A DNA stretch of 64,000 nucleotides from Flavobacteriaceae bacterium (lineage in GTDB: Bacteria > Bacteroidota > Bacteroidia > Flavobacteriales > Flavobacteriaceae): assembly GCA_002746415.1 (NCBI GenBank), contig NVXD01000001.1, positions 248,001 through 312,000 of the forward strand, given 5' to 3'. Positions 28,034 through 47,827 of this stretch are shown here, in pieces. The translations under genes and the position numbers were made by a program. A model generated the notes under the pieces. It did not search any database. It was not told where the DNA came from and was given only the letters and a program-made list of their open reading frames with translations. The number at the start of each line of letters is the position of its first letter. The stretch's first letter is position 1.

Positions 28034-28053
28034 ATAAAAAAAAAGTTAGAAAA

Positions 28054-29685: not shown

Positions 29686-29706
29686 GGGATTAAAATTAAA
29701 GATTAT

Positions 29707-29732
29707 AAAACCCGCTCAATTGAGCGGGTTTT
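29707..29732 (+). terminator. Rho-independent terminator after susD
   Basis: A perfect inverted repeat, AAAACCCGCTCAA/TTGAGCGGGTTTT, with the T-rich continuation TTCTTTATT. It separates susCD from the VCBS genes, so those probably have their own promoter. Confidence 0.9.
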
Positions 29733-29832
29733 CTTTATTAAACATTTCATTGCAACCTAACTACCATCAATAATTCATTTATTAAAATGAATTATTTTAA
29801 CATGAACTTTTACGTTTCATAAAAGAACATAC

Positions 29833-29840
29833 TAAATTTG
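29833..29840 (+). promoter_or_regulatory. -7 element for the VCBS lipoprotein operon
   Basis: TAAATTTG matches the Bacteroidota -7 consensus exactly, 63 bases before the chosen ATG. No good TTTG -33 element is at the ideal distance. Confidence 0.5.
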
Positions 29841-29903
29841 TAGTTCAATAATCCAGTATATATTAATGTTGTTTTGAAACTGAGGCAATTAATCAGTAGG
29901 TAC

Positions 29904-33182: not shown

Positions 33183-33189
33183 ACTAAAG

Positions 33190-36100
33190 ATGAAAGGATA
33201 TATTTTAAAATTTTGTTGTTTACTATTCATAGTCAGCTCATGTAAGAAAAAAAATGATCCAACGGTCGTTACTAAAACCAAAGAGACTTTATTTACCCTA
33301 CTTAGTTCAGAAGAAACAGGAGTAGATTTTATAAATAAAGTAGCTAATCAGAAAGACTTTAATATTTTTAAATACCGAAATTTCTATAATGGTGGAGGTG
33401 TAGCTATTGGTGACATTAATAATGATGGTTTAGCTGATATCTACCTTACTGGCAATATGGAAACAAACAAATTATACCTCAACAAGGGAAATATGCAATT
33501 TGAAGACATTTCTCTAAAAGCTGGTGTAGAAGGAGATAAACCTTGGTCTACAGGAGTAGTAATGGTAGATTTAAATTCTGACGGATTACTAGATATCTAT
33601 GTTAGTAATGCTGGAAATTTAGAGGGAAATAATCATGATAATGACCTTTATATTAATAATGGAGATTTAACCTTTACAGAAAAGGCCGATGAGTTCAATT
33701 TGGCAAAAACAGGGTTTTCTACCCATGCTTCATTTTTTGATTATGACAAAGACGGAGATTTGGATGCCTATATTCTAAATAATAGTAACATCCCGGTTAG
33801 TAGCTTAGGTTATGCGGAACAACGTGAAGTCCGTGCCCAGGATTGGGAAGGTGTACCACATATATTCCGAGGTGTTGGAGATATGCTCCTTAGAAATGAT
33901 AATGGAAAATTTGTTGATGTAAGCCAAGAGGCTGGTATTTATGGAAGCCTTATAGGTTTTGGATTGGGCGTATTGGTTACAGACATTAACCAAGACCTAT
34001 ACCCTGATATTTATGTTTCTAACGATTTTTATGAAAGAGACTATCTGTATATTAATCAGAAAGATGGCACCTTTACAGAAGAAATTAAAAACTACACTTC
34101 GCATCTCAGTCTATCTGCAATGGGAATAGATATAGCAGATATTAATAATGATGGTTACAATGATATATTTATTACCGATATGCTTCCAGAAGCAGAGCAA
34201 CGTGTGAAATCTGTTATGGAATTTGAAGGTTACAATATTTATGACCTTAAACGAAGTAAAGATTTCTCGCAACAATACATTCAAAATACACTTCAATTAA
34301 ACAACGGCAACGGATCTTTTTCAGAAATTGCTTACTACAGCGGTATAGATGCTACGGATTGGAGTTGGGCTGGTTTAATATTCGACATGGACAATGATGG
34401 TCTTAAAGATATATTTATAACCAATGGCATTAACCATGACCTTACTGATTTAGATTTTGTAGACTTTTTCGCCAATGAAATCATTCAAAAAATGGCATTA
34501 ACTGGCAAAAAAGAATCTATAGATTCTATTATTAGTAAAATGCCTATTAAACCACAGCCTAATTACGCCTATAGAAACAACGGGGACCTCACCTTTGACA
34601 AGGCTAACGAATATTGGGGTTTTGATCTTGCTACTCGCTCCAATGGTGCTGCATATGGAGATTTGGATAATGATGGGGACTTAGACCTTGTCATAAACAA
34701 TGTAAACACTGAGACCTTTATTTACAGGAACAACACCAACACTCAAAAAGACAATAATTATATACAACTTAAATTTATTGGGGAAGGTAAAAATCCTTTT
34801 GCAGTGGGAACACTTGCTCAATTTTATTTTGATGGGAATATTGTTAACCAGGAACTTTTTCCTTCAAGAGGCTTCCAGTCTTCTGTAGATTACATCATGA
34901 CATTAGGCCTTGGAAATCACCAAAAACTAGACTCCCTAAGAATTATTTGGACAAATGACAAAACAACTCTTTTAACAAATGTTAAAGCCAATCAACTGCT
35001 AACATTAAAACAGTCTGAAGCACTCAAAACATATAAACTCCCAACAAAAAAGAAAAAGGAAACCTTACTTATAGAATTAGATAACGGGAACTTTTTAACT
35101 CATGAAGAAAACAACTATAACGATTTTGATCAAGAAAGACTCATTTCCAAAAAATTATCACAAGAAGGGCCTGCCATGGCAATTGGAGATATAGACCAAG
35201 ATGGTAATGAGGACCTTTTTATTGGAGGTGCCAAAGGAAATCCAGGAATTATATATAGACACACTGGTAATGGTATATTTTCTCAAAAAAACCAAAGTAT
35301 TTTTGAACAAGACAAACTTTATGAAGATACTGCTGCAGTATTTTTAGATGCCGATTCTGATGGAGATCTAGACCTTATGGTTGGAAGCGGTGGAAACGAA
35401 CCTGGAAACGAGAAGCTATATAGAACCAGACTTTATCTTAACGATGGTAAAGGTAATTTTTCTGCTTCCAAACAGAACCTCCCAACCAATTACAAAAATG
35501 TAGCCACTATAGCCGCAAATGACTTTGATCATGACGGGGATATAGATGTTTTTATTGGATCTAGAAGCGTGGTTGGTGTTTATGGGCCAAGTCCAGATCA
35601 TTTATTACTTGAAAATAGAGATGGTCAATTTGTAGACGCTACAGAGCGCAGAGGATACGACTTAAAAGATGAAGGCATGGTTACCAAAGCTATTTGGGCT
35701 GATATAGATGGCGATCAAAAACAAGATTTAATTACAGTTTCTGAGTGGGGCACTCCTAAAATTTACAGAAACTCTGGCAGACGAATTCAAAAAATGGATT
35801 CTTCTCTAGATAGTTTATTTGGTTGGTGGAATAGTGTGGAAGCTGCTGATTTAGATAATGACGGTGATTTAGATTTAGTTTTGGGCAACCAAGGAGAGAA
35901 TTTACACTACAGGCCTAAAGATGGTCAAGTAATGAAACTGTGGATTAATGACTTTGATAACAATGGAACCATCGAACAGATTATGACGTTGAGTGAAAAT
36001 GGTAAGGATTACCCAATTCACCAGAAAAAAGAGCTTACCGCACAGCTAAGCCACCTTAAAAAACAAAATTTAAAGGCATCTGACTATGCCCAGCGTACTA

Positions 36101-36531
36101 TTCAAGAACTGTTTTCAAAACAATTAATAGAAGAATCTATAGTAAAGTTAGCTACAATTTCTGCTTCTGTTATTGCTATTAATGAAGGAAATGGTCAATT
36201 CACAATTAAAAAACTACCAAGTAGAACACAATTTTCCTGCGTCTGTGGCATACGCTGTACAGACGTTAATAATGACGGAAATATTGACATAATTATGGCT
36301 GGAAATAATTTTGAATTCAAACCTCAGTTTTCACGTTTAGATGCTAATTACGGCAATGTATTATTAGGAGATGGAAAATTAGGTTTTACTTGGCAAGACT
36401 ATGATGAGAGTGGTTTCTTTGTACGTGAAGAAATAAAACACTTGGGGCAGTTAAAAGATAAATCTGGTAAAAGGTTTATCATAGCGGCGATTAACGAAGG
36501 GAAACCTAAAATATTTGCATTACATGATTAG
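33190..36531 (+). CDS. VCBS/FG-GAP repeat and ASPIC/UnbV lipoprotein, copy 2
   Basis: About 1113 residues starting at the ATG at 33190, 7 bases after the previous stop; a longer in-frame reading from 33103 overlaps copy 1 and would bury the signal peptide. Lipobox VSSC (Cys about residue 18). Same layout as its neighbours: N-terminal FG-GAP blades (AIGDINNDGLADIYLTGN, DYDKDGDLDAYILNNS, DINQDLYPDIYVSNDFYE), ASPIC-like KNPFAVGTLAQFYF near 540, then C-terminal blades (ADLDNDGDLDLVLGNQG near 900). Two Cys-rich bases near the end (FSCVCGIRCTDVNNDG) are unusual for the set. Tandem paralogue; role unknown. Confidence 0.82.
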   Translation: MKGYILKFCCLLFIVSSCKKKNDPTVVTKTKETLFTLLSSEETGVDFINKVANQKDFNIFKYRNFYNGGGVAIGDINNDGLADIYLTGNMETNKLYLNKGNMQFEDISLKAGVEGDKPWSTGVVMVDLNSDGLLDIYVSNAGNLEGNNHDNDLYINNGDLTFTEKADEFNLAKTGFSTHASFFDYDKDGDLDAYILNNSNIPVSSLGYAEQREVRAQDWEGVPHIFRGVGDMLLRNDNGKFVDVSQEAGIYGSLIGFGLGVLVTDINQDLYPDIYVSNDFYERDYLYINQKDGTFTEEIKNYTSHLSLSAMGIDIADINNDGYNDIFITDMLPEAEQRVKSVMEFEGYNIYDLKRSKDFSQQYIQNTLQLNNGNGSFSEIAYYSGIDATDWSWAGLIFDMDNDGLKDIFITNGINHDLTDLDFVDFFANEIIQKMALTGKKESIDSIISKMPIKPQPNYAYRNNGDLTFDKANEYWGFDLATRSNGAAYGDLDNDGDLDLVINNVNTETFIYRNNTNTQKDNNYIQLKFIGEGKNPFAVGTLAQFYFDGNIVNQELFPSRGFQSSVDYIMTLGLGNHQKLDSLRIIWTNDKTTLLTNVKANQLLTLKQSEALKTYKLPTKKKKETLLIELDNGNFLTHEENNYNDFDQERLISKKLSQEGPAMAIGDIDQDGNEDLFIGGAKGNPGIIYRHTGNGIFSQKNQSIFEQDKLYEDTAAVFLDADSDGDLDLMVGSGGNEPGNEKLYRTRLYLNDGKGNFSASKQNLPTNYKNVATIAANDFDHDGDIDVFIGSRSVVGVYGPSPDHLLLENRDGQFVDATERRGYDLKDEGMVTKAIWADIDGDQKQDLITVSEWGTPKIYRNSGRRIQKMDSSLDSLFGWWNSVEAADLDNDGDLDLVLGNQGENLHYRPKDGQVMKLWINDFDNNGTIEQIMTLSENGKDYPIHQKKELTAQLSHLKKQNLKASDYAQRTIQELFSKQLIEESIVKLATISASVIAINEGNGQFTIKKLPSRTQFSCVCGIRCTDVNNDGNIDIIMAGNNFEFKPQFSRLDANYGNVLLGDGKLGFTWQDYDESGFFVREEIKHLGQLKDKSGKRFIIAAINEGKPKIFALHD

Positions 36532-39500
36532 ACTCTTCCTATTTTTCTGTTTGGCTATTTCATTAGTAGGCTGTAATAAAGAGGGGACTGTTTTCAAAAC
36601 AACATCACCCAAACAAACAGGGGTGGATTTTTCTAATAACATTACAGAAACCGACGAACTCAATATCTTAGATTACCTATATTTTTATAATGGTGGTGGT
36701 GTTGCTATAGGCGACATAAACAATGATGATCTCCCAGATATTTTCTTCTCTGGAAACCAAGTAAAAAATAAATTATACCTCAACAAAGGTCAAATGCAAT
36801 TTGAGGATATTACTCAAACCGCTAATGTAGAAGGAAACAGTACCTGGAATACTGGGGTGACTATGGGAGATATCAATGGTGATGGCTGGTTAGATATTTA
36901 TGTCTGTGCAGTTGTTGGTATAAATGGCTTCAATGGCCACAATGAGCTTTTTATTAACAACCAAGACGGTACTTTTACAGAAAAATCGGCGGAATACGGT
37001 TTAGATTTTGATTCTTATAGCTCATCTGCTGCATTTTTAGATTACGATTTAGATGGTGACTTGGACCTGTACCTTCTTAACCATGCGGTGCATACATCTG
37101 AGTCTTATGGTAAAGCAAATTTAAGGCACCAACGCAACTATGAATCTGGCGATAAACTTTTACGAAATGACAATGGTAAATTTACTGATGTAAGTGAAGA
37201 AGCTGGCATTTATGGGGGTATAAATAGTTATGGTCTAGGCTTAGCCATATCAGATTTTAATCTGGACGGATACCCTGATATGTATGTCGGGAATGATTTT
37301 CATGAGGATGATTATTATTATCTAAACAATGGCAATGGTACTTTTACAGAAAGTTTACGTGAGTCGTTTGGGCACACAAGCCGTTTTTCAATGGGTAGTG
37401 ATGTTGCTGATATTAATCATGACGGACTTCCAGACCTTATCTCTTTGGATATGCTTCCTGAAAAAGAAATTCCGTTAAAAGCTTCAGAAGGGGATGATAA
37501 TATACAAACCCAAAAAATGCGGATTGCACAATATGGCTACCATTACCAGTTTACTAGAAACATGATGTATGTAAACCAACCAGATGGTAATTTTATGGAA
37601 ACTGCTCTAATGAGTGGTATTGCAGCAACAGATTGGAGTTGGAGTGCCCTTTTTGGTGATTATGACCAAGATGGTGAACAAGATTTATTTGTGGCCAACG
37701 GAATTCCTAAACGCCCCAATGATTTAGATTTTGTAAAATTTGTATCTAGTGAGCAGATTCTCAACAAAATAAACAACACCAAATTAGTAGACCAAAAGGC
37801 TTTGGAAATGATGCCATCAGGAGCACATCATAATTATATGTTTCAAGGCAAAACGAATTTGTCCTTTGAAAATCAATCCAAAGATTGGATTACCAACGAC
37901 ACTTTAATTTCTGGGGCATCTGCATACGGAGACTTAGACAATGATGGAGACTTAGATTTGGTGGTCAACAACCTAAATTCCCCGGCTACAATCTATCAAA
38001 ACAAGACCAATAATAAACATAGTTTTTTAAAGTTAAAATTTAACTATATTGGAAAAAACACATTTGGAATCGGCACTAAAGTTTATGCTTATACCAATGG
38101 AAAACTGCAATATAAAGAGCTTTTCCCTTCAAGAGGTTTTCAAGCAACATCTGAACCTATTATTCATTTTGGGTTTGCAAATGCTACAGAAATAGACTCT
38201 CTAAAGATAGTTTGGCCCAATAAAACCTATCAAACTTTAGAAGATATAGAAACAAATCAGACAATAACCCTTAGCCCAAAAAACACAAAAACCTTAAATT
38301 ATAAAACTTTAATCCCAAAATTAAAACCTCTATTTAAAAAGGACAGTTCTAATTTGGGAATTAATTTTACTCATATTGAAGATGGCTATTTAGATTTTAA
38401 CCGTGAAAAATTAATCCCATATAAAATTTCAGATAGAGGCCCTGCTTTTGCTGAAGGGGATTTAGATAATGACGGCAAAAAGGATCTTTTCTTTGGTGGC
38501 TCCAAATATATGCCATCTGTGGTATACCTTAACAAAGACAGCATTTTTATACAAACATCAGTGGAGGAAATTAAAAACGACTCCATTAAAGAAGACATCT
38601 CAGCTGTTATAGCAGATTTTAATGGTGACCATAAAAATGATTTGTTAATAGGTTCTGGCGGAGGAGATTTCTTTGGGAAATCAGACCCATTAACGGATTC
38701 TTTTTACCAACAATTAGACGCTCAATTTAAAGCTGAAGCATTCCCCAATATTTTCCAAAATACCGCTATCATAAAACCATTTGATTATGACAAGGATGGA
38801 GATTTGGATATATTTATTGGCTCCCAGACCATTACTGGGGATTTTGGAGCCAGTGTAAAATCTCATCTTCTTATAAACCAAAAAGGAACATTTATTATTG
38901 ATGACAATTTTGTCTTAGAAGGCATGGTTACTGATGCGCTGTGGGATGATTTTGACAACGATGGTTTCACTGACTTAATTGTTGTAGGCGAATGGATGAG
39001 TCCCAAATTTTATAAAAACAGTAATGGTATATTTGCAGTTGTAGAAACACCCAAGATTTCTGGATTATGGCAGTCCATCCATCCATTTGATATAGATGCA
39101 GATGGTGACACGGACTATTTGTTGGGGAATTGGGGGTTAAACACCAAATTTAAAGCCTCTAAAGATGCCCCCTTAAAGTTATTTTATGCAGATTTTGATA
39201 AAAACGGGCAAACAGAAACGGTAACGGCAATTGCCAAAAATGGAGCCTACTACCCTATTGAAGGTTTAGATGGTTTATCTAGCCAAATGGTATTCCTGAA
39301 GAAAAAATTTAATTCCTTTAGCTCCTTTGCTGGTAAAACAATACAGGAAATTTTTGGGGAGGAATTATTGAAGCAAGCCACCACCTTAGACGTAAATACA
39401 CTCGCTTCTGGTTATCTAAAGAATGAAAATGGCGCGTTTATTTTTGTTCCTTTTAAACACGAACTACAAGTATCCCCAATCCTAGATTTTGTTTCTTTCG

Positions 39501-39766
39501 ATTTTGACGGAGATGGCAATACAGAGGTTTTAGTAGGCGGAAATTATTTTGGAGTAAAACCATACCATGGAAGGTTTGATTCCTTCCCTGGGGCTCTTAT
39601 TCATAGCGAAAAGCACATAGTACTGGGGAATAAGTTAGGATTAGATTTCACCCAAAAATCCATACGACATTTACATGTTTTAGATTTTAACGGAATCCAT
39701 TATTTGCTAGCAGTATATAATAATGACACAGTAGAAACCTATAAGATATTAGATGAAAAAAATTAG
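36524..39766 (+). CDS. VCBS/FG-GAP repeat and ASPIC/UnbV lipoprotein, copy 3
   Basis: About 1080 residues. Start chosen at 36524 (MIRLFLFFCLAISLVGC, lipobox Cys about residue 17), where ATGATTAG overlaps the stop of copy 2, so translation is coupled. N-terminal FG-GAP blades (AIGDINNDDLPDIFFSGN, DYDLDGDLDLYLLNHAVH, DFNLDGYPDMYVGNDFHEDD), ASPIC/UnbV (NTFGIGTKVYAYTNGK, near 540) and a C-terminal blade set (DYDKDGDLDIFIGSQT, DIDADGDTDYLLGNWGLNTKFKAS split near 860-885). Together with copies 1 and 2 it gives three adjacent homologues of nearly equal size, best explained by duplication followed by divergence. Confidence 0.82.
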   Translation: MIRLFLFFCLAISLVGCNKEGTVFKTTSPKQTGVDFSNNITETDELNILDYLYFYNGGGVAIGDINNDDLPDIFFSGNQVKNKLYLNKGQMQFEDITQTANVEGNSTWNTGVTMGDINGDGWLDIYVCAVVGINGFNGHNELFINNQDGTFTEKSAEYGLDFDSYSSSAAFLDYDLDGDLDLYLLNHAVHTSESYGKANLRHQRNYESGDKLLRNDNGKFTDVSEEAGIYGGINSYGLGLAISDFNLDGYPDMYVGNDFHEDDYYYLNNGNGTFTESLRESFGHTSRFSMGSDVADINHDGLPDLISLDMLPEKEIPLKASEGDDNIQTQKMRIAQYGYHYQFTRNMMYVNQPDGNFMETALMSGIAATDWSWSALFGDYDQDGEQDLFVANGIPKRPNDLDFVKFVSSEQILNKINNTKLVDQKALEMMPSGAHHNYMFQGKTNLSFENQSKDWITNDTLISGASAYGDLDNDGDLDLVVNNLNSPATIYQNKTNNKHSFLKLKFNYIGKNTFGIGTKVYAYTNGKLQYKELFPSRGFQATSEPIIHFGFANATEIDSLKIVWPNKTYQTLEDIETNQTITLSPKNTKTLNYKTLIPKLKPLFKKDSSNLGINFTHIEDGYLDFNREKLIPYKISDRGPAFAEGDLDNDGKKDLFFGGSKYMPSVVYLNKDSIFIQTSVEEIKNDSIKEDISAVIADFNGDHKNDLLIGSGGGDFFGKSDPLTDSFYQQLDAQFKAEAFPNIFQNTAIIKPFDYDKDGDLDIFIGSQTITGDFGASVKSHLLINQKGTFIIDDNFVLEGMVTDALWDDFDNDGFTDLIVVGEWMSPKFYKNSNGIFAVVETPKISGLWQSIHPFDIDADGDTDYLLGNWGLNTKFKASKDAPLKLFYADFDKNGQTETVTAIAKNGAYYPIEGLDGLSSQMVFLKKKFNSFSSFAGKTIQEIFGEELLKQATTLDVNTLASGYLKNENGAFIFVPFKHELQVSPILDFVSFDFDGDGNTEVLVGGNYFGVKPYHGRFDSFPGALIHSEKHIVLGNKLGLDFTQKSIRHLHVLDFNGIHYLLAVYNNDTVETYKILDEKN

Positions 39767-40661
39767 TTACGGCATTCTTATAATTTTATTTATGGGACTT
39801 TTATGGTACCTATTTGTAAAACCTTCAGATTATATTATACGGTTTACCGCCAAAACCTTTCCTGGTGATATCAATCAAACGCTTAAACTTTGGAATCAAA
39901 ATTTAAGTAACTCTAAAGAAAAATTAGCAGGACAGACTATTGAGGATAATGGAGACCTCCTTCATTTAGTACAAAATATTAAATTTGGAGACTCCGTGCA
40001 TACTTATTACTGGGACATAAAACCACTAACAGACTCCACCTCTAAAGTAATAGTGGGTGTTACGGATAAGGAACACAGTATTCTTAACCGCATAAAAATT
40101 CCCTTCTCCAAAACTGATTTTGAAAAACGGAGTGAAAAAACGGTATTGGATTTTATGCAAAATTTACGAGAGCACACCAAAAATTTTAAAATAACCATTA
40201 TAGGAGAAGCGGAGATTCCGTCTAAGTATATTGCTTACATTCCCATTAAAGGAAAGCAATTTGAAAAGGCAGATGGCATGATGCGTAATTTTACTTTTCT
40301 CACCAATGAACTTTTTATAAATGGGGCAGAATTTAACGGACCTCCAATAATTGAAGTAACGTATTGGGACAAAAAAAATGATAGTATTCATTTTAACTTT
40401 GGGCAACCCATAATTAGGTCAGAAAATTTACCCATTGGCCAAGAAATAAAATACAAGCGAATTTTTAAGAAAAAAGCTCTGAAAGCTGAATACAATGGCA
40501 ACTACATTACTTCAGATAGAGCATGGTATGCCCTTTTAAATTATGCCAAAAAAAATAATATAGAAGTTGATGCTACACCATTTGAAGTATTCCATAATAA
40601 TCCCAACACTGGTGGAGACGAGATAAATTGGAAGGCTGAAGTATACCTGCCTATTAAATAA
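39753..40661 (+). CDS. Membrane-anchored SRPBCC/GyrI-like effector-binding protein
   Basis: 302 residues with one N-terminal hydrophobic helix (ISYGILIILFMGLLWYLFV) and no lipobox, so probably held in the inner membrane with a periplasmic domain. Residues about 25-140 look like a START/polyketide-cyclase-like fold (IIRFTAKTFPGDINQTLKLWNQ) and the C-terminal 130 residues like a GyrI/AraC effector-binding domain (ends NNPNTGGDEINWKAEVYLPIK-type, where 'P..xxxW.xEvyiPi' is the usual closing strand). The start overlaps copy 3 by 14 bases, so it is cotranscribed with the VCBS genes. Ligand unknown. Confidence 0.65.
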   Translation: MKKISYGILIILFMGLLWYLFVKPSDYIIRFTAKTFPGDINQTLKLWNQNLSNSKEKLAGQTIEDNGDLLHLVQNIKFGDSVHTYYWDIKPLTDSTSKVIVGVTDKEHSILNRIKIPFSKTDFEKRSEKTVLDFMQNLREHTKNFKITIIGEAEIPSKYIAYIPIKGKQFEKADGMMRNFTFLTNELFINGAEFNGPPIIEVTYWDKKNDSIHFNFGQPIIRSENLPIGQEIKYKRIFKKKALKAEYNGNYITSDRAWYALLNYAKKNNIEVDATPFEVFHNNPNTGGDEINWKAEVYLPIK

Positions 40662-40693
40662 AAAAGCTTCATCTTAAAATAGATGAAGCTTTT
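40662..40693 (+). terminator. Strong, possibly bidirectional terminator
   Basis: AAAAGCTTCATCT (40662-40674) and AGATGAAGCTTTT (40681-40693) pair perfectly around a 6-base loop, right at the stop of the preceding gene. Before integration of the element it would also have stood just downstream of the leftward tRNA-Leu gene. Confidence 0.88.
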
Positions 40694-40697
40694 AGAA

Positions 40698-40748
40698 GTA
40701 CTCGAGGCGGGAATCGAACCCGCACTCCGAAGAACTGGATTTTGAATC
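40698..40748 (-). repeat. att repeat, distal copy (tRNA-Leu 3' fragment)
   Basis: 51 bases identical to 47747-47797. It covers the T arm, variable arm and anticodon loop of the tRNA and then stops matching at 40749 (T instead of C), so it is a fragment and not a functional tRNA. Confidence 0.95.
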
Positions 40749-40829
40749 TAGGTTAGTTGTTTTTACAATTTCCATGTTGTTGATAGTCAGTTTTTTAAAG
40801 TTTTTTAAATACTGGATTAATAACTAATC

Positions 40830-40849
40830 GTACTCGATTTCGTACTCGA
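40830..40849. repeat. Left-end paired GTACTCGA repeats (candidate integrase arm sites)
   Basis: GTACTCGA occurs at 40830-40837 and 40842-40849, 12 bp apart. The same pair recurs near the other end at 47640 and 47652 with the same spacing, and the att core itself begins GTACTCGAG. The surrounding gap 40749-40912 holds nothing else I can identify. Confidence 0.6.
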
Positions 40850-40912
40850 TAATCTTCTATTAAAATTATTCTGTTGCTTAATATATTTACCTATTTATCA
40901 AAAAATATCGGC

Positions 40913-41833
40913 TCACTTATTTAAAGATTTGGAAAGGTTTTCCATAATGTTGATAATTGAGTCCTTAGCATGATTTCCAACAAAATACGTCACTCCATTT
41001 TTATCATTAACTTTCTTTTTTAAGACTTCATCAATAAAATAAGTTTTAGAATTATGCAAATCGGTATAAGTACCTTTCAAATGAACATGAATATATTCAA
41101 TCATTGTTATGTCCACTACATAACCCATCAAATTGACAGGTACCAATTGGCCTTTTTTTAGTCGCCTGTTCTTAGATAATATTATTGTTTTGCTTAAAGA
41201 CATTTCTACATTATCACTCCATTGAGTTAAAATTTGTGCTTTAATATTAAAATTTGTACTGCCAGCATCCAATGATACCATGTTTAAAAAGAATTTAAGT
41301 GTATCATTTTCGCTTGTGAATTTAAAAGGATCATTATCAGGATGAAAGAAAGGATCATTAGGAGGCATGAAACTATTATTTGTAGTACTTGTTCCTTCAA
41401 CTTCAGACAAAAGGCTTTCTATTTTTATTCCTTGATTCGCAAATATTATTGCAATTCGATTATATAATATATCGCTTTCTTCCTTAACACCTTGGCGAAT
41501 TAAACTATCACGTTGAATCCTTTCAGCTTTAAGTAAATTATCTATTGTTATAAGCCTCTGTTTTTTATAACAATACTGAGCAGTCATTAGTGAAAAGATT
41601 ATTAAATTTAAAACTATCAGATTCCTTCCTCTCGGAGTTATTACTTTCCACCATTTACTTGTAAATGTCAAATTAGATAATATCCCTTTAGTAATTACAA
41701 AAGGTATAATCAATACAATAATTGCAATTAACAATGAAAAGACTAAATCAGGTATTTCTGAAAAAACCTCCAAGTTCATATAATTTTCACTATTTATCCT
41801 ATTCCTACATACCTGGACTAAACCAAGATACAT
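40913..41833 (-). CDS. Unknown membrane protein, element cargo
   Basis: 306 residues, not recognised. Two hydrophobic helices lie near residues 28-50 (LVFSLLIAIIVLIIPFVIT) and 71-86 (LIVLNLIIFSLMTAQYC), then a charged coiled-coil-like stretch (KKQRLITIDNLLKAERIQRD), a low-complexity linker (NNSFMPPNDPFFHPDNDPF near 165) and a soluble, beta-rich C-terminal domain. It lies at the distal end of the element on the opposite strand to most of it, a typical place for cargo. The 244-base gap on its upstream side is shared with the divergent lipoprotein gene. Confidence 0.6.
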   Translation of the reverse strand: MYLGLVQVCRNRINSENYMNLEVFSEIPDLVFSLLIAIIVLIIPFVITKGILSNLTFTSKWWKVITPRGRNLIVLNLIIFSLMTAQYCYKKQRLITIDNLLKAERIQRDSLIRQGVKEESDILYNRIAIIFANQGIKIESLLSEVEGTSTTNNSFMPPNDPFFHPDNDPFKFTSENDTLKFFLNMVSLDAGSTNFNIKAQILTQWSDNVEMSLSKTIILSKNRRLKKGQLVPVNLMGYVVDITMIEYIHVHLKGTYTDLHNSKTYFIDEVLKKKVNDKNGVTYFVGNHAKDSIINIMENLSKSLNK

Positions 41834-42026
41834 TATTTTTATTCCAACAAATTACAACAAATTATATTCACAACACTTTAACAAGGTAAACCATAGGTAT
41901 TTAATGGTTTTCATATAGTTTGATTTGAAAAACTTGTCATACTTTGGCACTCCCCCTTTGGATTATAGATACCATAACTGTTTATAAACCTTTTAATAAC
42001 TTAAGCAAAGAAACTTCTTACAAATA

Positions 42027-42070
42027 TAGTTTTGATAGTAAATTTAAGATGATTTATAAATCTTAAATTT
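42027..42070 (+). promoter_or_regulatory. -7 element followed by an 11-bp hairpin before the small lipoprotein
   Basis: TAGTTTTG (42027-42034) is an exact TAnnTTTG match. Six bases later AAATTTAAGAT (42040-42050) and ATCTTAAATTT (42060-42070) form a perfect inverted repeat with a 9-base loop, ending 7 bases before the ATG at 42078. Transcription would begin about at the hairpin, which is either an operator or a 5' stem of the mRNA. Confidence 0.6.
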
Positions 42071-42077
42071 TATTATT

Positions 42078-42254
42078 ATGAAAAAAGTAGGGTATTTGTT
42101 TTTTGCAGTAGTAGTGTTAATGGGTTCTTTGGTTTCTTGTAAGCCTGAAACTAATTTAGACGAAACAGCAAAGCTGTATGACACAATCAAAATCGACGAA
42201 CTCGCCATCGACAAAGACGACACAACATCAGGGGGGGATAAAGGAAGCAACTAA
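42078..42254 (+). CDS. Small lipoprotein (58 aa), element cargo
   Basis: Reads MKKVGYLFFAVVVLMGSLVSCKPE: a textbook lipoprotein signal with lipobox LVSC and Cys21, leaving a mature peptide of only 38 residues rich in Asp, Lys and Thr and ending DDTTSGGDKGSN. A promoter and hairpin stand directly upstream. Its last 77 bases overlap the next gene in another frame. Similar tiny lipoproteins can be immunity-like or entry-exclusion-like factors, but nothing in the sequence proves a role. Confidence 0.7.
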   Translation: MKKVGYLFFAVVVLMGSLVSCKPETNLDETAKLYDTIKIDELAIDKDDTTSGGDKGSN

Positions 42255-42942
42255 CCATATTCTTCGTTTTATTAAATATTATTTGGTCACAGTCATCTTG
42301 GCTGTGGCTTTTTTTTCTCACATGTTTTTCCCAAATAGAGAACATGATATCTCTGCCGTAAAAAACGAAAGGAACCAGGTAACCGAAAATATTACAAATG
42401 CCTCTCAAGCAATTGTACAATTGACTGCGGATTTTTTACAAAACAATATAGATCTCCCAACTTTTGAAGCTTCTGTTAAACTCCAGAACATAACCATTGG
42501 TGATCTTGAATTACAAGAACAACAACTAACCGAAGAATTCAACAAAATGGATAGACGTTACAGAAAACTCTATTTTGGCTTTCCTTCCAGAAGGTTGCTT
42601 TTTTACAATATTGGTCTAGGTATTGATTTTTGCATCCTTGCTTTATTGATAATCAATTTAAGTTTTAAGCAAAAAAATACAACTAAAAGATTATCATACG
42701 GTTTAGTAGGTATCATTGGGCTACAAATTGGGGTATACTTCTTTGTCTGGATTTTGTATGATCAACAAGACTTAAGTTATAATATATATATGTGCATCAT
42801 GGTTTTGATTGCCGGTTGTGCTGCTAGTTTGGGTTATTACTTATCCAAAATAAAGTATGAAAAAATTAGCGTATTAAAATCAAAAAACACTTTTCTTCAA
42901 AGTGCCTTGGATTCAACATTTAAAATTTTAGGCAAAAAATAA
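42178..42942 (+). CDS. Unknown four-helix membrane protein, element cargo
   Basis: 254 residues, not recognised. After a hydrophilic, Ser/Thr-rich N-terminus comes a first helix (YYLVTVILAVAFFSHMFF, about residues 34-51), a coiled-coil-like region rich in Gln and Glu (about 60-125), and three further helices (GIDFCILALLIINLSF, LVGIIGLQIGVYFFVWILY, NIYMCIMVLIAGCAASLGYYL). The ATG at 42178 lies inside the lipoprotein gene, an overlap of 77 bases; no better later start precedes the first helix. Probably works with the lipoprotein and the 61-aa gene that follows 2 bases after its stop. Confidence 0.6.
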   Translation: MTQSKSTNSPSTKTTQHQGGIKEATNHILRFIKYYLVTVILAVAFFSHMFFPNREHDISAVKNERNQVTENITNASQAIVQLTADFLQNNIDLPTFEASVKLQNITIGDLELQEQQLTEEFNKMDRRYRKLYFGFPSRRLLFYNIGLGIDFCILALLIINLSFKQKNTTKRLSYGLVGIIGLQIGVYFFVWILYDQQDLSYNIYMCIMVLIAGCAASLGYYLSKIKYEKISVLKSKNTFLQSALDSTFKILGKK

Positions 42943-42944
42943 GT

Positions 42945-43130
42945 ATGAATAAATACAAACAACTCACTATTCAGCTTATTGAGGCTCGAGAACAATTTGA
43001 TAATGGCGATATTACTCTTGAAGATTTTGAGAAGATTTTGAAGGGTCTTTATGAAGATTACTTGAAATTAGAAAAAAAGCAAAATGAAAAGGAAAGGAAA
43101 GAAATGGTAAACCTTCTATTTGCTACTTAA
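42945..43130 (+). CDS. Small charged protein (61 aa), element cargo
   Basis: Predicted helical and highly charged (LIEAREQFDNGDITLEDFEKIL, KKQNEKERKE), with no signal peptide. It starts 2 bases after the membrane-protein stop, so the two are very likely cotranscribed. Its last four bases overlap the end of the convergent repressor gene. Function unknown. Confidence 0.55.
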   Translation: MNKYKQLTIQLIEAREQFDNGDITLEDFEKILKGLYEDYLKLEKKQNEKERKEMVNLLFAT

Positions 43131-43621
43131 GATTTTTTTGATTTCAATTGATTCAGATCCCCAACATTCTCACCCAATCTACTCTCAAATCCTTCTTTGT
43201 GCAACATATTGTAAATTTCATCTACCTTTTCAATGGTACTTGCAAGCGTAGTATTCATAACCTTGGGAAAGTCTTCTTCTAAGGTTAATATTTGCTTTTG
43301 AAGCATTGCAATTATTTGATCCTTATTTACACCGGGATCTACCTTGCTATTTTTATTCGATAATTCTGGATGATTCTCTTCCACAAAACGATCATACTGT
43401 TGTGAAGGAAAACCAATTTCACCGGTAACAAAGTCAGTTAAATTAATTTCAAAGTACTTACACATCAATAAAATCTTGTCAATTGGTGGCTTTACTGTGC
43501 CATTTACCCAACCACTAACACTACCTGGACTCGTGTTCGCTATCACTTTTCCAAAATCTGATTGTTTTACGTTTCGGATTGAAAGTAGTTTTTTTAAATT
43601 ACTGGGTAAATTGTAAGGCAT
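43127..43621 (-). CDS. XRE-family repressor of the element
   Basis: 164 residues. The first 70 are a Cro/CI-type helix-turn-helix (NLKKLLSIRNVKQSDFGKVI, then SPGSVSGWVNGTVKPPIDKILLMCKYFEI), followed by an alpha-helical region (about 95-150, ILTLEEDFPKVMNTTLASTIEKVDEIYNML split over two helices) that may dimerise. It faces the 43720 gene across a 98-base gap containing three inverted repeats and a good promoter, the classical arrangement of an immunity repressor. Confidence 0.82.
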   Translation of the reverse strand: MPYNLPSNLKKLLSIRNVKQSDFGKVIANTSPGSVSGWVNGTVKPPIDKILLMCKYFEINLTDFVTGEIGFPSQQYDRFVEENHPELSNKNSKVDPGVNKDQIIAMLQKQILTLEEDFPKVMNTTLASTIEKVDEIYNMLHKEGFESRLGENVGDLNQLKSKKS

Positions 43622-43622
43622 T

Positions 43623-43695
43623 TAATTATTTTAAATAATTATTCAATTAAACCTTTGTGTATTTAATTATATTAAATTAAATTTGTTGGAAACAA
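43623..43695 (+). promoter_or_regulatory. Rightward element promoter with three inverted-repeat operators
   Basis: The promoter is TTTG (43654-43657), 20 bases, then TAAATTTG (43678-43685), a full Bacteroidota consensus. IR1 AATTATT-TTA-AATAATT spans 43624-43640; IR2 ATTTAAT-TAT-ATTAAAT spans 43661-43677 and fills the spacer between -33 and -7; IR3 TTGTT-GGA-AACAA spans 43683-43695 and overlaps the -7 element. All three have a 3-base centre. These are the likely sites of the adjacent XRE protein. Confidence 0.72.
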
Positions 43696-43719
43696 TTTAA
43701 CAACTGCAATTTAATCATT

Positions 43720-44037
43720 ATGATTTCATTACACAAAAAATATCTAATTGCCCGTAACAAAAAGGCATTTTTTTTCATCATAGATAAGATAAGTAAAGGG
43801 GTTCCCGTAGTTGATGCCCTACAACAGGCCGCAGAGTCAAATGATTTTACCGTTTCCTATGGTTGTGCAAAACAACTTATTTACAACAAAGAATATTTTT
43901 GGTCTCCTTATTTTGAATATGACAAGAAAGGCAATGTCGTTTTTTTGTTGGATATCAGTGGTGCAAAAATTGTTGGCTCAGAAACTAAATTTTATAAGGA
44001 CTATATGAAAGAGAAGGAATTGAAAGAAGTAGCATAA
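43720..44037 (+). CDS. Unknown protein (105 aa), first gene of the rightward element operon
   Basis: Not recognised. No membrane segment; basic N-terminus (MISLHKKYLIARNKKAFFFIID), a helical middle (VVDALQQAAESNDFTVSYGCAKQLIY, resembling a small DNA-binding or helix-turn-helix-like stretch but not convincingly) and a charged tail (KDYMKEKELKEVA). Its place opposite the XRE repressor is where satellite and phage elements usually keep a Cro, antirepressor or other early regulator, so a regulatory role is a reasonable guess. Confidence 0.55.
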   Translation: MISLHKKYLIARNKKAFFFIIDKISKGVPVVDALQQAAESNDFTVSYGCAKQLIYNKEYFWSPYFEYDKKGNVVFLLDISGAKIVGSETKFYKDYMKEKELKEVA

Positions 44038-44064
44038 GGCCAACAAAAAAATACCATTAAAAAA

Positions 44065-44084
44065 GGCAGGGTACCAACCCTGCC
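44065..44084 (+). promoter_or_regulatory. Perfect hairpin directly before leader copy 1
   Basis: GGCAGGGT-ACCA-ACCCTGCC, an 8-bp perfect GC-rich stem with a 4-base loop, ending 3 bases before leader copy 1. No T-run follows, so it is not a standard terminator. Confidence 0.6.
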
Positions 44085-44087
44085 TCA

Positions 44088-44102
44088 CCAAATAAAATAC
44101 CA
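44088..44102 (+). repeat. Leader repeat copy 1 (CCAAATAAAATACCA)
   Basis: Identical 15 bases recur at 44819, 45290 and 46004. Here the nearest ATG is at 44117 (a 36-codon ORF), and the recognised gene starts at 44212. Confidence 0.75.
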
Positions 44103-44116
44103 CAAAAAATACTCGA

Positions 44117-44227
44117 ATGAGTACTATCGTGGAGATTTTAATTTTCAAAAGAGTACCACCTCTTTTGAATTGCAAAGATAACAAAAAAACGAGTGGCGCA
44201 ACAATAGTACAATGGACCAAGGAGTAA
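44117..44227 (+). CDS. Possible 36-aa leader peptide
   Basis: ATG at 44117 opens 36 codons (MSTIVEILIFKRVPPLLN...) ending in TAA at 44225-44227, overlapping the start of the next gene at 44212. It is placed like the coding starts behind the other leader copies, but nothing else supports it; it may be a leader peptide or chance. Confidence 0.3.
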   Translation: MSTIVEILIFKRVPPLLNCKDNKKTSGATIVQWTKE

Positions 44228-44445
44228 CAACATTTTTAACTGATAGCATTAAGGCTTTGACCAAGAAGCAACAAATGCAAATTGTTGAGAGTGTTTTAAA
44301 GGACTTGGACAGCAACAGTATAAAGGCAAAAGAAATCAACCAGACCATAGCACTAATGCCGCAATATGATATCAGTGCAATGGCCGCTGAAATTAGAAGA
44401 ACCCACAACTATAAAAATAGAAAACCCAAAGCAGTAACCCATTAA
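44212..44445 (+). CDS. Unknown small protein (77 aa)
   Basis: Not recognised. Soluble, mostly helical by composition (DSIKALTKKQQMQIVESVLKDLD), with a basic tail (RRTHNYKNRKPKAV) that could contact nucleic acid. Followed after 17 bases by the next small gene, so likely cotranscribed within the rightward cluster. Confidence 0.5.
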   Translation: MDQGVTTFLTDSIKALTKKQQMQIVESVLKDLDSNSIKAKEINQTIALMPQYDISAMAAEIRRTHNYKNRKPKAVTH

Positions 44446-44462
44446 TAATTAAATACATATTT

Positions 44463-44720
44463 ATGAAATCAAGTGACATTTTAGCAGAGCTCAAAGCGAG
44501 AAAGCAGAAAGCAACAGAAGGAGTTGGAAAAGGAAAAAAAATTCCACAAATAGCCATTACTGAAAACGACATCGAAAAGGCCTTATCCTCTTTGAATGGT
44601 GTGACAGAGGATTATCTTAACCAACCTGGTTTCCTTACCACGGTTTATTTGAACGGAGCCAAAAGAACTGGTAAGGATATTACAAATATTAGAGAAGGTC
44701 TATTTGTGGCCTTTGTTTAA
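44463..44720 (+). CDS. Unknown small protein (85 aa)
   Basis: Not recognised. Lys-rich N-terminus (LKARKQKATEGVGKGKKIP) followed by a more ordered part (ITENDIEKALSSLNGVTEDYL, AKRTGKDITNIREGLFVAFV). No signal peptide or membrane segment. A small palindrome (44730-44740, GGCAA-T-TTGCC) and a CGGGAG/CTCCCG pair (44754-44782) lie in the 112-base gap before the next gene. Confidence 0.5.
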   Translation: MKSSDILAELKARKQKATEGVGKGKKIPQIAITENDIEKALSSLNGVTEDYLNQPGFLTTVYLNGAKRTGKDITNIREGLFVAFV

Positions 44721-44818
44721 AATCCAAGGGGCAATTTGCCTTTAGCCTAAGTTCGGGAGTTTACCAAAGGGGGTTTCTCCCGTCCTTACGGCTTTCAAAA
44801 GTACCGCAATACCATTCA

Positions 44819-44833
44819 CCAAATAAAATACCA
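44819..44833 (+). repeat. Leader repeat copy 2, fused to a start codon
   Basis: CCAAATAAAATACCA, whose last A is the A of the ATG of the following gene at 44833. Confidence 0.8.
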
Positions 44834-45075
44834 TGTACACACCACAAGATAAAAGAAAGGTCAAAGCGGCCATTAAAACCATTAAGGAAATATATAACGA
44901 TAATGACATTCATTTTATCATCATTTCCAAAGAGGTATTAAAAGGAGATAAGGACCAAGTGAATTTTGATATAGGAGGTAATCCAATACAAATAGCACAC
45001 GCAATTTACTCCGCCGCAACAGATGATCACATGATCAATCATATTATTAAGAAAGCAACCCAAATATTAAAATAA
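44833..45075 (+). CDS. Unknown small protein (80 aa)
   Basis: Not recognised. Begins MYTPQDKRKVKAAIKTIKEIY, then DIHFIIISKEVLKGDKDQVNFDIGG and HAIYSAATDDHMINHIIKKATQIL: an alternating helix/strand pattern of a compact alpha/beta protein. Start fixed by leader copy 2 and coupled by a TAATG overlap to the next ORF at 45075. Confidence 0.5.
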   Translation: MYTPQDKRKVKAAIKTIKEIYNDNDIHFIIISKEVLKGDKDQVNFDIGGNPIQIAHAIYSAATDDHMINHIIKKATQILK

Positions 45076-45236
45076 TGGCATCAAACGAAAAAGGCGAAAC
45101 CGTTGCCCATATCGCTCAAATACAGGATATGAAAGATAAATACCCAGAAATTGCAAGGCCCTTGACCAACATTGAAAACCATTTCAAGGGGCTGACACGA
45201 ATTAAATCTGTCAGACAACCAAATACCATTACATAA
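45075..45236 (+). CDS. Unknown small protein (53 aa)
   Basis: ATG at 45075 overlaps the previous stop (TAATG). Reads MASNEKGETVAHIAQIQDMK and continues through KYPEIARPLTNIENHFKGL to RQPNTIT, then TAA. Hydrophilic, helical, no membrane segment. The translational coupling is the main reason to accept it as a gene. Function unknown. Confidence 0.5.
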   Translation: MASNEKGETVAHIAQIQDMKDKYPEIARPLTNIENHFKGLTRIKSVRQPNTIT

Positions 45237-45243
45237 TAAAACC

Positions 45244-45288
45244 TTAAAGCAATAATGCTTTAAACCACCAAAACCATGCCTTGCATGG
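45244..45288 (+). promoter_or_regulatory. Two tandem hairpins before leader copy 3
   Basis: TTAAAGCA-ATAA-TGCTTTAA (45244-45263, 8-bp stem) and CCATGC-CTT-GCATGG (45274-45288, 6-bp stem). The second ends 1 base before leader copy 3, as the hairpin before copy 1 does. Confidence 0.6.
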
Positions 45289-45289
45289 A

Positions 45290-45304
45290 CCAAATAAAAT
45301 ACCA
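45290..45304 (+). repeat. Leader repeat copy 3
   Basis: CCAAATAAAATACCA, 2 bases before the ATG at 45307. Confidence 0.8.
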
Positions 45305-45306
45305 CA

Positions 45307-45627
45307 ATGAAACATACATCACAACAGGTTACATCATTTCATTTAATGCAACCCCTTAGAAAAAACAAGAACTTATTGGAAGTTCCTAATTTAAGCCATA
45401 CACCGGTACAATTTCACGGACTGTATTCCACCATTCGCCAAAACCAACACATCAAAAAATTTGAACAGCATTTGTCAGGAACAAGAATATACCTGCAATT
45501 GTTTTTAGCAGATGGGCTTATTTGCCACACAGCATTGAATAGAAGACTTGCTAATATGTTCTACAGCCATAGTGCGGTAATAACATTTCACGAGAACTTT
45601 CTAATTGTTGAACTCCAAATTAAGTAA
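45307..45627 (+). CDS. Unknown protein (106 aa)
   Basis: Not recognised. No signal peptide. Composition suggests a small alpha/beta protein (VQFHGLYSTIRQNQHIKKFEQHLSGTR, IYLQLFLADGLICHTALNRRLANMFY split, ending FHENFLIVELQIK). Start set by leader copy 3; the next gene begins 1 base after the stop (TAATATG), so the two are coupled. Confidence 0.5.
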   Translation: MKHTSQQVTSFHLMQPLRKNKNLLEVPNLSHTPVQFHGLYSTIRQNQHIKKFEQHLSGTRIYLQLFLADGLICHTALNRRLANMFYSHSAVITFHENFLIVELQIK

Positions 45628-45628
45628 T

Positions 45629-45967
45629 ATGATTATTTCACCGGTGGACATATTGACAATCAGTATTTATTTGGTTGCCAATATATGGGTTCGCCTCTGG
45701 TTGATAATACGCAAAACAAAAATAAAGACATTCCATTTTCATTGTTTAAATACCATCCATGAAGCCCTGCCATTAATGCCGGACTTTTTCAAAATGTGCA
45801 ATGATGAATGCTTTACAAAACAATACTTTAAATATGACAAAATCAAACCAAACCACGATGATATGCTTTACAGTTTTAAAAAATTGACCATTGAAAATTG
45901 GTTTACCGAAAATCAAATAAAAACTCTTTTTGGGCTGCCCCACCAGTCCTTAAATAAACAATTATGA
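45629..45967 (+). CDS. Unknown protein with one N-terminal hydrophobic helix (112 aa)
   Basis: Not recognised. I start at the ATG at 45629 rather than an overlapping TTG at 45605. One hydrophobic segment (VDILTISIYLVANIWVRLWLII split near residues 6-26) is followed by a basic, His/Cys-containing hydrophilic domain (FHFHCLNTIHEALPLMPDFF, MCNDECFTKQYFKYDK). Likely a single-pass membrane protein with a cytoplasmic C-terminus. Confidence 0.5.
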   Translation: MIISPVDILTISIYLVANIWVRLWLIIRKTKIKTFHFHCLNTIHEALPLMPDFFKMCNDECFTKQYFKYDKIKPNHDDMLYSFKKLTIENWFTENQIKTLFGLPHQSLNKQL

Positions 45968-46003
45968 GATAATCCGAACAAGACAAAATTACTAGCATTC
46001 CCA

Positions 46004-46018
46004 CCAAATAAAATACCA
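46004..46018 (+). repeat. Leader repeat copy 4
   Basis: CCAAATAAAATACCA, 4 bases before the ATG at 46023. No hairpin stands in front of this copy. Confidence 0.8.
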
Positions 46019-46022
46019 CAAA

Positions 46023-47084
46023 ATGAGCAATTCAGCGAAAAGAAGTAACAAGAGTGCATCTGTTTTACAGGTCATGCAGGAGGTACCAGGAGTAAAAAAA
46101 GAAGTGCAAGTAATTTCCGCAACAGAACTGCAACAGATGGGGAACTATCCCTACAAAGCAGTGTTTCCAATCTTGGAGAAAAACACCCTTTCTTACTGCT
46201 ACCAACGATATAGAGAGTATGAAACCCTGTATAACACCAAGGTATTTAACTTCAATTTAATTGTTGAGCGATTCAACAATAATGTTGATATGAATATTAC
46301 AAAGACCTCTAATTCCAAATCATGCCTCCAGCAAGCTAAGAACTTCATATCACAACACAATTCCAATCAAGTTTGGGAATACAATATTAAGGCACAAGAA
46401 TACAACATGCTTTTTCCATCCCCAATAATCAAATTACGAAAAGCACAACCATTAAAAAATAACCATAGGGATTTGTTTGATATGATTTTACGCAGGTATC
46501 AAATTAGTTTAATGGAAATGAAGCGGATGCAACAAAGAATGGGTAAAACTCACGCTACTACTATTCCAAGAGTAGATGTAAACACATCCCATTTAACCGA
46601 TTTAAACCACATTGGAGGCGCTAAAATGACACTTAAAACACGTGTTACCCTAAGGCGCACAAAAAAGCGACTAGAGGAAGCTGGTGTGCTTACAGACAAG
46701 GCTTTTAGAGGGAACAAAAGAGGGGTTTTATACTTCATTAACCCTCAAATTTTTGCCGTTTTTGATGATTTTGATGGAGAAATTTTGAGGTCTGACAATC
46801 AGCTTGTTATCCCCCCATCTGTATCAAAATGTTATGATTCTCTTACCCCTACTTGTTCAATAAATAAACCAATAATAAAGAGAGTTGTTGAAAAGACAAC
46901 TCTTATAAGGAAAAAAGCCGCCAACACAACTAAAAAACAGCCAGATAATGCAGATGGCTTTTTGTCGAGAAATTGTCTTACAGACAGTTCTACTTGTTCA
47001 CCAAGTGCAAAAAACGGTCAAAGCGAACCACTGGAAACGGATTTTTTTGAACCACTTAAAAAATCGTTTCAGATTATACTATAA
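46023..47084 (+). CDS. Unknown 353-aa protein with winged-helix-like region, possible replication or transcription factor
   Basis: Largest gene of the rightward cluster. Basic N-terminus (SAKRSNKSASV); the middle segment TLKTRVTLRRTKKRLEEAGVL followed by GNKRGVLYFINPQIFAVFDDF (about residues 200-255) has the look of a winged helix as found in plasmid/element replication initiators and regulators. The C-terminal 90 residues are low-complexity and Ser/Thr/Lys-rich. Position next to the integrase and size fit a replication initiator of a small element, but no Rep family signature is certain. Confidence 0.5.
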   Translation: MSNSAKRSNKSASVLQVMQEVPGVKKEVQVISATELQQMGNYPYKAVFPILEKNTLSYCYQRYREYETLYNTKVFNFNLIVERFNNNVDMNITKTSNSKSCLQQAKNFISQHNSNQVWEYNIKAQEYNMLFPSPIIKLRKAQPLKNNHRDLFDMILRRYQISLMEMKRMQQRMGKTHATTIPRVDVNTSHLTDLNHIGGAKMTLKTRVTLRRTKKRLEEAGVLTDKAFRGNKRGVLYFINPQIFAVFDDFDGEILRSDNQLVIPPSVSKCYDSLTPTCSINKPIIKRVVEKTTLIRKKAANTTKKQPDNADGFLSRNCLTDSSTCSPSAKNGQSEPLETDFFEPLKKSFQIIL

Positions 47085-47138
47085 AAGGGTTTGCAATAAA
47101 TATTGCTATGCTCACTTTAATCCGGCGGGGGTGGTATA

Positions 47139-47687
47139 CTATGTCCGTCCTTTCCACTTAAGTTCTGATATGCTTTTTTTGTCTAACTCATTTTCTTTAC
47201 ACCAATCCAAAAACATATTGAGGTAATTCCAATAACTATTGTACGTGCCTTCTTTTAAAGTATTTTTTTTGTTTTCTAATGCTGAAACAAACGCTTCTTT
47301 GATTGTATTGTATGTTTTTTCAATTTGTTCATTAGCAGTATCATCAAGGGGGTTCCATCCTCCAACTAGTAATTCCTTATAAGCAGCAACCATTGCATTA
47401 CCGTAAACAATCCTCTCATTAACGGTTTTAAAGCGATTAATATTTCTATAAAATTTTAAAGGTTGCTTGGAAAATAAGCCAGTATCAGGGTCCTTATACC
47501 TAAAATACACATACCACCGATAACCTTTTTTTGCAGTAGGAACACGCATACCCCTTGTATTTTCCTTTGGAATATACAGTTTAGGCTCTGAATAACGTCT
47601 TTCAGCGATAATCATTTTGTGTTTTATGACCTCATTTCCGTACTCGAATTCGTACTCACTTTGAATATTTATGCTAATTTTTTTCAT
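47139..47687 (-). pseudogene. Truncated tyrosine recombinase/integrase (N-terminal 182 aa only)
   Basis: Starts MKKISINIQSEYEFEYGNEV, with an arm-type DNA-binding region (KGYRWYVYFRYKDPDTGLF) and the beginning of a SAM-like core-binding domain (EGTYNSYWNYLNMFLDWCKENELDKKSI split near residues 142-170). It then stops after LKWKGRT, before the catalytic domain with its Arg-His-Arg-Tyr residues (integrases of this class are usually about 400 residues). The gene begins 60 bases from the att repeat, as expected for a site-specific integrase. The 3' part has been deleted near 47140, so the protein cannot catalyse excision. Confidence 0.8.
47640..47658. repeat. Right-end paired GTACTCGA repeats (candidate integrase arm sites)
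   Basis: GTACTCGA at 47640-47647 and GTACTCA at 47652-47658, with the same 12-bp spacing as the left-end pair. They lie inside the start of the integrase gene, where they encode EYEFEY-type residues, about 90 bp from the att repeat. Confidence 0.55.
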
Positions 47688-47712
47688 AGCTAAATATCAA
47701 TTTTATACAAAA

Positions 47713-47736
47713 AAACCCCTTTGTTTAAAGGGGTTT
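47713..47736 (-). terminator. Terminator of tRNA-Leu supplied by the element
   Basis: AAACCCCTTT-GTTT-AAAGGGGTTT, a perfect 10-bp stem followed on the minus strand by a T-run. It lies between the tRNA 3' end and the integrase start, outside the att repeat, so it belongs to the element. Confidence 0.85.
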
Positions 47737-47746
47737 GGGGGGAGTT

Positions 47747-47797
47747 GTACTCGAGGCGGGAATCGAACCCGCACTCCGAAGAACTGGATTTTGAATC
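47747..47797 (-). repeat. att repeat, copy within the intact tRNA-Leu
   Basis: Partner of the 40698-40748 repeat. This copy keeps the complete tRNA, as expected when a tyrosine recombinase integrates at a tRNA 3' end and restores the gene. Confidence 0.95.
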
Positions 47798-47827
47798 CAG
47801 CGCGTCTACCAGTTCCGCCACTCGAGC
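47748..47827 (-). tRNA. tRNA-Leu (anticodon CAA)
   Basis: 80 bases, transcribed leftward: acceptor stem GCTCGAG pairing with CTCGAGT (last pair G-T), discriminator A, D arm GCGGAACTGGTAGACGC, anticodon stem CTGGA/TCCAG with loop TTCAAAA (anticodon CAA, codon UUG), a short class-II variable arm, and T arm GCGGGTTCGATTCCCGC. CCA is not encoded. It is the integration site of the 7.1 kb element. Confidence 0.95.

Follow-up and report, generated by a model that had tools for sequence, protein, structure and literature searches.

A 7-kb interval bounded by copies of a tRNA-Leu(CAA) 3' end, located in a 64,000-nucleotide stretch of a Flavobacteriaceae genome (G000; GenBank assembly GCA_002746415.1, contig NVXD01000001.1, positions 248,001 to 312,000; this whole stretch is hereafter the window), is very probably a cryptic prophage, that is, the remnant of a larger temperate flavobacterial phage after an internal deletion. 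The original prediction had placed an integrative element in this tRNA gene and had left its type open between a satellite, a mobilisable island and a remnant. Our analysis speaks for the remnant and against a 7.1-kb element in its own right, since homologues of its two truncated genes are complete in larger prophages.

The insertion itself is as predicted. ARAGORN calls a single tRNA across the window, tRNA-Leu(CAA), whose last 51 bp are duplicated exactly and at the predicted coordinates (Table 1); the repeat reaches 54 bp if one mismatch is allowed, and the exact identity with a tRNA 3' end is beyond chance. The left copy could have been a second full tRNA gene, yet no tRNA is called there. 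The predicted terminator next to it also proved genuine; it is probably the original terminator of tRNA-Leu(CAA) and may have a second role for ORF302 on the plus strand. A comparable hairpin immediately follows the tRNA of relative G027. G+C content is 32.9% within the element versus 35.2-35.8% in its flanks.

At the integrase side, two truncated genes meet. The only integrase gene of the element starts 60 bp from tRNA-Leu(CAA) and has a frame of 182 aa (177 native codons plus the rest), which lacks the catalytic domain; the original prediction mentions neither this truncation nor the dispersed repeat at the broken end. Its homology to the complete integrases of Cochleicola gelatinilyticus (G040), of G101, which belongs to another genus, and of G054 (431-436 aa) extends to residues 166-177, and the fragment matches a Pfam SAM-like domain (E 0.005) and a PHROG integrase (E 0.003). 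The homologues of ORF353, represented by 12 distinct sequences in IMG/VR contigs and in genomes of flavobacteria, have 553-629 aa; in ORF353, the native sequence ends at residue 327 and the last 26 codons are encoded by a short dispersed repeat. In a genome self-search, ~150 bp spanning the ends of ORF353 and the integrase recurred on contig C36 with 94% and 92% identity, with shorter matches on C33 and at contig ends of C33 and C15. Alignment of the copies defined a 151-bp unit (47006-47156), the left end of which coincides exactly with the native end of ORF353 and the right end with that of the integrase at codon 177. On the left as on the right, the unit matches the corresponding terminus of a full-length IS21 copy (G000:C33:72993-75531) whose IstA and IstB exceed the NCBIfam cut-offs; the unit is therefore an IS21-type mini-element, devoid of transposase genes.

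One might suspect that the assembly was misjoined at this repeat and that the 7-kb size is an artefact, as there are two further copies in the genome (92-94% identical) and IS21 ends do break contigs. However, there is 6-8% divergence between the copies, such repeats usually cause an assembly to break rather than to lose 20-30 kb of unique sequence, and neither the catalytic half of the integrase nor the C-terminal half of ORF353 is present on any contig of the assembly, which is 96.75% complete. We consider a misjoin highly improbable. The sole genome match to the catalytic half is a different, complete integrase (C26:40221-41540).

The halves missing here are joined in complete relatives. 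G040 has homologues of both genes, ORF353 and integrase, within a single element of 26.5 kb bounded by 21-bp att repeats; G101 likewise has them within a single element, of 41.9 kb and with a 17-bp repeat. Their order and orientation are those of the remnant, and both integrases start ~100 bp or less from a tRNA. The repressor is also collinear in G040, whereas in G101 the correspondence covers ORF353 and the integrase only. The G101 prophage encodes a terminase, a head-maturation protease and an endolysin, the G040 prophage an endolysin and few recognisable structural genes. By arithmetic from gene positions, the stretch equivalent to the deletion measures ~22 kb in G040 and ~33 kb in G101; judged from these prophages, the loss at the junction comes to roughly 20-35 kb and comprises the virion genes together with both gene ends. 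Besides, an isolated phage with a related integrase, Leeuwenhoekiella phage vB_LaeS_Arctus_1, is organised as repressor (minus strand), early genes (plus), virion genes and integrase (minus) beside a tRNA-Met 3' end, and repressors akin to that of the remnant occur in the G040 and Flavobacterium gillisiae prophages. The interval hence shares with prophages the flanking att core repeats and genes homologous to and collinear with complete ones, and lacks the virion, packaging and lysis genes and the complete integrase of an intact prophage. As a side observation, several proteins of the G040 prophage (L051/L086) carry a C-terminal membrane helix, and it possibly belongs to a non-tailed phage.

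Descent from a PICI-like phage satellite that never had virion genes and lost just a few kb would be compatible with the small size, the integrase, the repressor and the small early genes, as well as with a ~10.5-kb interval in G054, whose tRNA-Leu(CAA) likewise harbours a homologue of the integrase. Such an origin is nevertheless very unlikely, given that the ORF353 and integrase homologues are joined in full-size prophages, that relatives of ORF353 are present in eight viral contigs, and that Pfam, PHROGs and PADLOC gave no match to packaging-interference or satellite-specific replication genes. It is hardly credible that the interval derives from an integrative mobilisable or conjugative element (IME or ICE): flavobacterial IMEs and ICEs do use related integrases, and G050 has mobilisation-type genes near one, but the latter is far more distant (E 1e-7 versus 7e-27 for G040), and a CI-type repressor and a phage-type early block stand in place of relaxase or transfer genes, neither of which had a match among the element proteins in Pfam and PHROG scans. 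That no relaxase, capsid or terminase gene is visible, as stated in the original prediction, was borne out by scans with Pfam, PHROG and PADLOC. Apart from these alternatives, an exact 189-bp repeat in G054 (L126 4803-4991 and 15317-15505, 10.5 kb apart) covers the tRNA-Leu 3' half, a terminator and the integrase start, and is possibly the remnant of a tandem insertion.

We also compared the locus in relatives lacking the element. The tRNA-prs neighbourhood is conserved, and nothing interrupts the tRNA-Leu 3' end in the 29 relatives with the flank read, among them G001 of the same genus, where kduI follows it; G054, with its related integrase in this very tRNA, is left apart. In several relatives, a terminator hairpin stands directly behind the tRNA. 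The expected empty site was thereby found on the tRNA/prs side, but not on the left, since the left neighbour ORF302 is located elsewhere in relatives (~767 kb away in G001), which therefore offer no strict two-sided empty site. Because ORF302 does not adjoin tRNA-Leu in relatives, a rearrangement beside this tRNA is likely. The window to the left of the element (24905-40661) holds SusC/SusD-like and FG-GAP-type genes.

Several observations weigh against the prophage interpretation. Pfam and PHROG scans found no virion, packaging or lysis genes in 40749-47746; with no virion gene left, phage origin is argued from gene order and homologues, the closest of which are just 25-40% identical. Except for the repressor, the remaining early and cargo genes had no detectable homologues in the G040 and G101 prophages, and G040 showed no recognisable terminase or portal among ten proteins scanned. 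An exact two-sided empty site, sought via ORF302 in relatives, was not found. Finally, the mini-element has no target-site duplication at the junction (CCAAG versus CTTAA), which leaves the deletion route unproven; none was evident at the other IS21 and mini-element copies examined either. Besides the mini-element, a DNA search of 198 relatives brought up no close relative of the element.

In the scenario we favour, site-specific recombination would have inserted a temperate flavobacterial phage at the 3' end of tRNA-Leu(CAA); the phage would have carried its own version of the tRNA 3' half together with a new terminator, so that the tRNA stayed whole. Later, IS21-type mini-elements may have entered both the early/replication gene and the integrase gene, or an insertion sequence may have caused the deletion directly; everything from mid-ORF353 to mid-integrase would have been lost, with one mini-element left at the join. 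Recombination between two mini-element copies and IS21-mediated deletion could each yield this junction, and we can only infer the route because the missing target duplication fits both. Without a catalytic domain in its integrase, the remnant is unable to excise itself. Repressor and cargo genes have intact reading frames and the operator-like region persists, which makes continued repressor expression, conferring immunity to related phages, plausible.

Elsewhere in the genome, a SAM methyltransferase fragment (C-terminal, 187 aa) lies between two direct mini-element copies (L005, G000:C36, 9331-10000, minus strand). IS21-type left ends enter host genes in one and the same frame at three sites (window 47006-47084; L005 9331-9408; L093 5496-5530) and append an AKNG.S.P-type tail, both mini-element cases ending in FFEPLKKSFQ..L.

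As dead prophages go, the element itself is ordinary, if clear in its anatomy, and what deserves the attention of specialists is the layout of its putative integrase arm-type sites. A 19-bp tandem with a period of 12 bp at the integrase start is 18/19 identical to a copy inside the opposite att site, the maximum in 60 shuffles being 16. Judged by sequence, the two repeats are probably arm-type sites of the integrase, one of them placed inside its own gene. This fits what is known of Bacteroidetes integrases of the IntCTnDOT subgroup, because their arm-binding domain, which contacts subterminal arm sites (PMC8138268), would predict such sites.

The arrangement recurs in related integrases, most of which start close to a tRNA, usually tRNA-Met. 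A 12-bp tandem (at least 9/12 matches) was present in the first 105 nt of 24 out of 31 integrases versus 0-5 in nine downstream windows, with a mild bias in that the set includes hits to a repeat-containing query; a separate search across the phylum supplied five distinct full-length integrases, of which four passed the tandem test and one failed. Where identical residues stood at positions i and i+4 within the first 105 nt, the same codon was used in 92 of 113 cases (52.3 expected, z 7.8), and therefore it is the DNA, not the peptide, that is constrained. Searching by pattern for one class of repeat yielded 40 hits across 14 genomes, compared with 4 for the reversed pattern, and pairs of hits lay 21-59 kb apart on one strand. 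Distal copies lie 83 bp (G029) and 92 bp (G025) from a 43- and a 45-bp copy, respectively, of a tRNA-Met 3' end; G069 and G006 have shorter att cores near the distal repeat copy, and the G040 copy matches at 15/16 positions. Weaker copies were seen in Arctus_1 (14/16, P 0.09) and in viral contig L142, whose attP is undivided (P 0.06), and those of G101 and G054 were not significant. The genome also holds a second, complete integrase of the subfamily beside a tRNA-Met (G000:C26:40221-41540), with a 12-bp repeat at its start (VYENAYD); a distal arm copy was sought for it (C26:40226) and not found.

On balance, we think it likely that flavobacterial tRNA-targeting integrases hold their own arm-type sites within codons 1-35, in the form of a tandem with a 12-bp (four-codon) period which differs in sequence between elements and recurs ~80-100 bp inward of the opposite att. 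The DNA site would then determine the N-terminal peptide, and integrase bound to its own gene would couple recombination to autorepression. The layout may be new: we found no report of arm sites inside an integrase coding start, which is weak evidence of novelty as subscription journals were mostly outside the coverage of the literature search.

The second truncated gene, ORF353, flags an undescribed phage protein family. The family has no Pfam, PHROG or PDB sequence match, and ORF353 had none by tblastn in phage or plasmid collections, the former including Arctus_1. A structural model of the family (pLDDT 71.6) combines helices and a winged-helix region in its N-terminal part, and had no Foldseek match at E <= 0.001. 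Its best VIA-align rows were 4pql (DNA binding protein N-terminal domain, Z 7.4) and 4pt7 (initiator, Z 7.1), scores too low for a family assignment, and the weak rows also include phage replication proteins. From position and modelled fold, a replication initiator would be our guess.

From the distal att inward, the element is ordered as arm-like repeat, ORF306 (minus), lipoprotein-like ORF, ORF254 and ORF61 (plus), CI-type repressor (minus), small early ORFs (plus), ORF353 (plus) and integrase fragment (minus). The four copies of the leader CACCAAATAAAATACCAC compare with 0.72 expected. Sought in viral contigs, the leader CCAAATAAAATACCA gave single, unspecific matches only. The F. gillisiae prophage locus (L134) has a repeated motif of its own, CCATTAAACCAA, in 7-8 copies, perhaps translation leaders analogous to CACCAAATAAAATACCAC.

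Table 1. Features of the tRNA-Leu(CAA) locus (window coordinates).
Feature	Position	Strand	Remarks
Terminator beside displaced tRNA 3' end	40662..40693	-	hairpin -16.4 kcal/mol, fold z -6.1
att core, distal side (displaced original tRNA 3' end)	40698..40748		exact repeat; no ARAGORN tRNA
Probable distal arm-type site	40829..40847		80 bp from att core
ORF306, membrane-anchored cargo gene between att and repressor	40913..41833	-	no family match
Cargo genes: 58-aa lipoprotein-like ORF, ORF254 membrane protein, ORF61	42078..43130	+	
CI-type HTH repressor	43127..43621	-	Pfam HTH_26; PHROG 2967, E 9.5e-11
Two operator-like palindromes, ATTTAATTAT(T/A)TTAAAT, between repressor and early genes	43621..43677		putative, read from sequence
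Small early ORFs (105, 77, 85, 80, 53, 106, 120 aa)	43720..45967	+	no family match for those scanned
18-bp leader CACCAAATAAAATACCAC, 4 copies	44086..46023	+	at 44086, 44817, 45288, 46002; 3 directly before start codons
ORF353	46023..47003	+	native residues 1-327 of phage early protein family (553-629 aa)
151-bp IS21-type mini-element, TGCAAAAAACGG...CCGTCCTTTCCA	47006..47156		deletion junction
Integrase, native codons 1-177 only	47157..47687	-	core-binding domain begins, catalytic domain lost
Probable integrase arm-type site, 12-bp tandem	47639..47657		within integrase codons 11-17 (EYEFEYG); 18/19 match to distal copy
Element-supplied terminator for rebuilt tRNA	~47713..47736	-	hairpin -12.6 kcal/mol, then U run
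att core, integrase side (tRNA 3' 51 bp)	47747..47797		exact repeat
tRNA-Leu(CAA), rebuilt at integrase-side junction	47747..47827	-	ARAGORN

Taken together, a 7-kb orphan island is explained as a prophage stripped at an IS21-type mini-element. Beyond this locus, the repeat pattern could provide a sequence-only route to both ends of many flavobacterial mobile elements, and it directly predicts positions of integrase binding as well as self-regulation.

Compared with flavobacterial temperate phages and prophages (Arctus_1, C. gelatinilyticus, G101), the remnant likewise uses a tRNA 3' end as att, has an integrase that starts beside att and points into the element, and keeps the order of repressor and early genes; it shares the ORF353 family with the C. 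gelatinilyticus and G101 prophages, but its virion genes are gone, as are half of ORF353 and the catalytic domain of the integrase. The mini-element has the TG...CA ends and repeated subterminal motifs of the IS21 copy at C33:72993-75531, yet is only 151 bp long, with neither transposase genes nor a target-site duplication. The IntCTnDOT subgroup (CTnDOT, NBU1) is comparable in that its members are also Bacteroidetes tyrosine recombinases, and NBU1, as cited in PMC10865867, inserts at a tRNA-Leu 3' end; the putative arm sites here differ in lying inside the integrase coding start. In the KplE1 prophage, intS reads away from its tRNA att site as here, and att overlaps the integrase promoter, giving autoregulation (PMC2951348). 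The overlap described there, however, is with a promoter, whereas here the repeats lie in codons, with a four-codon period.

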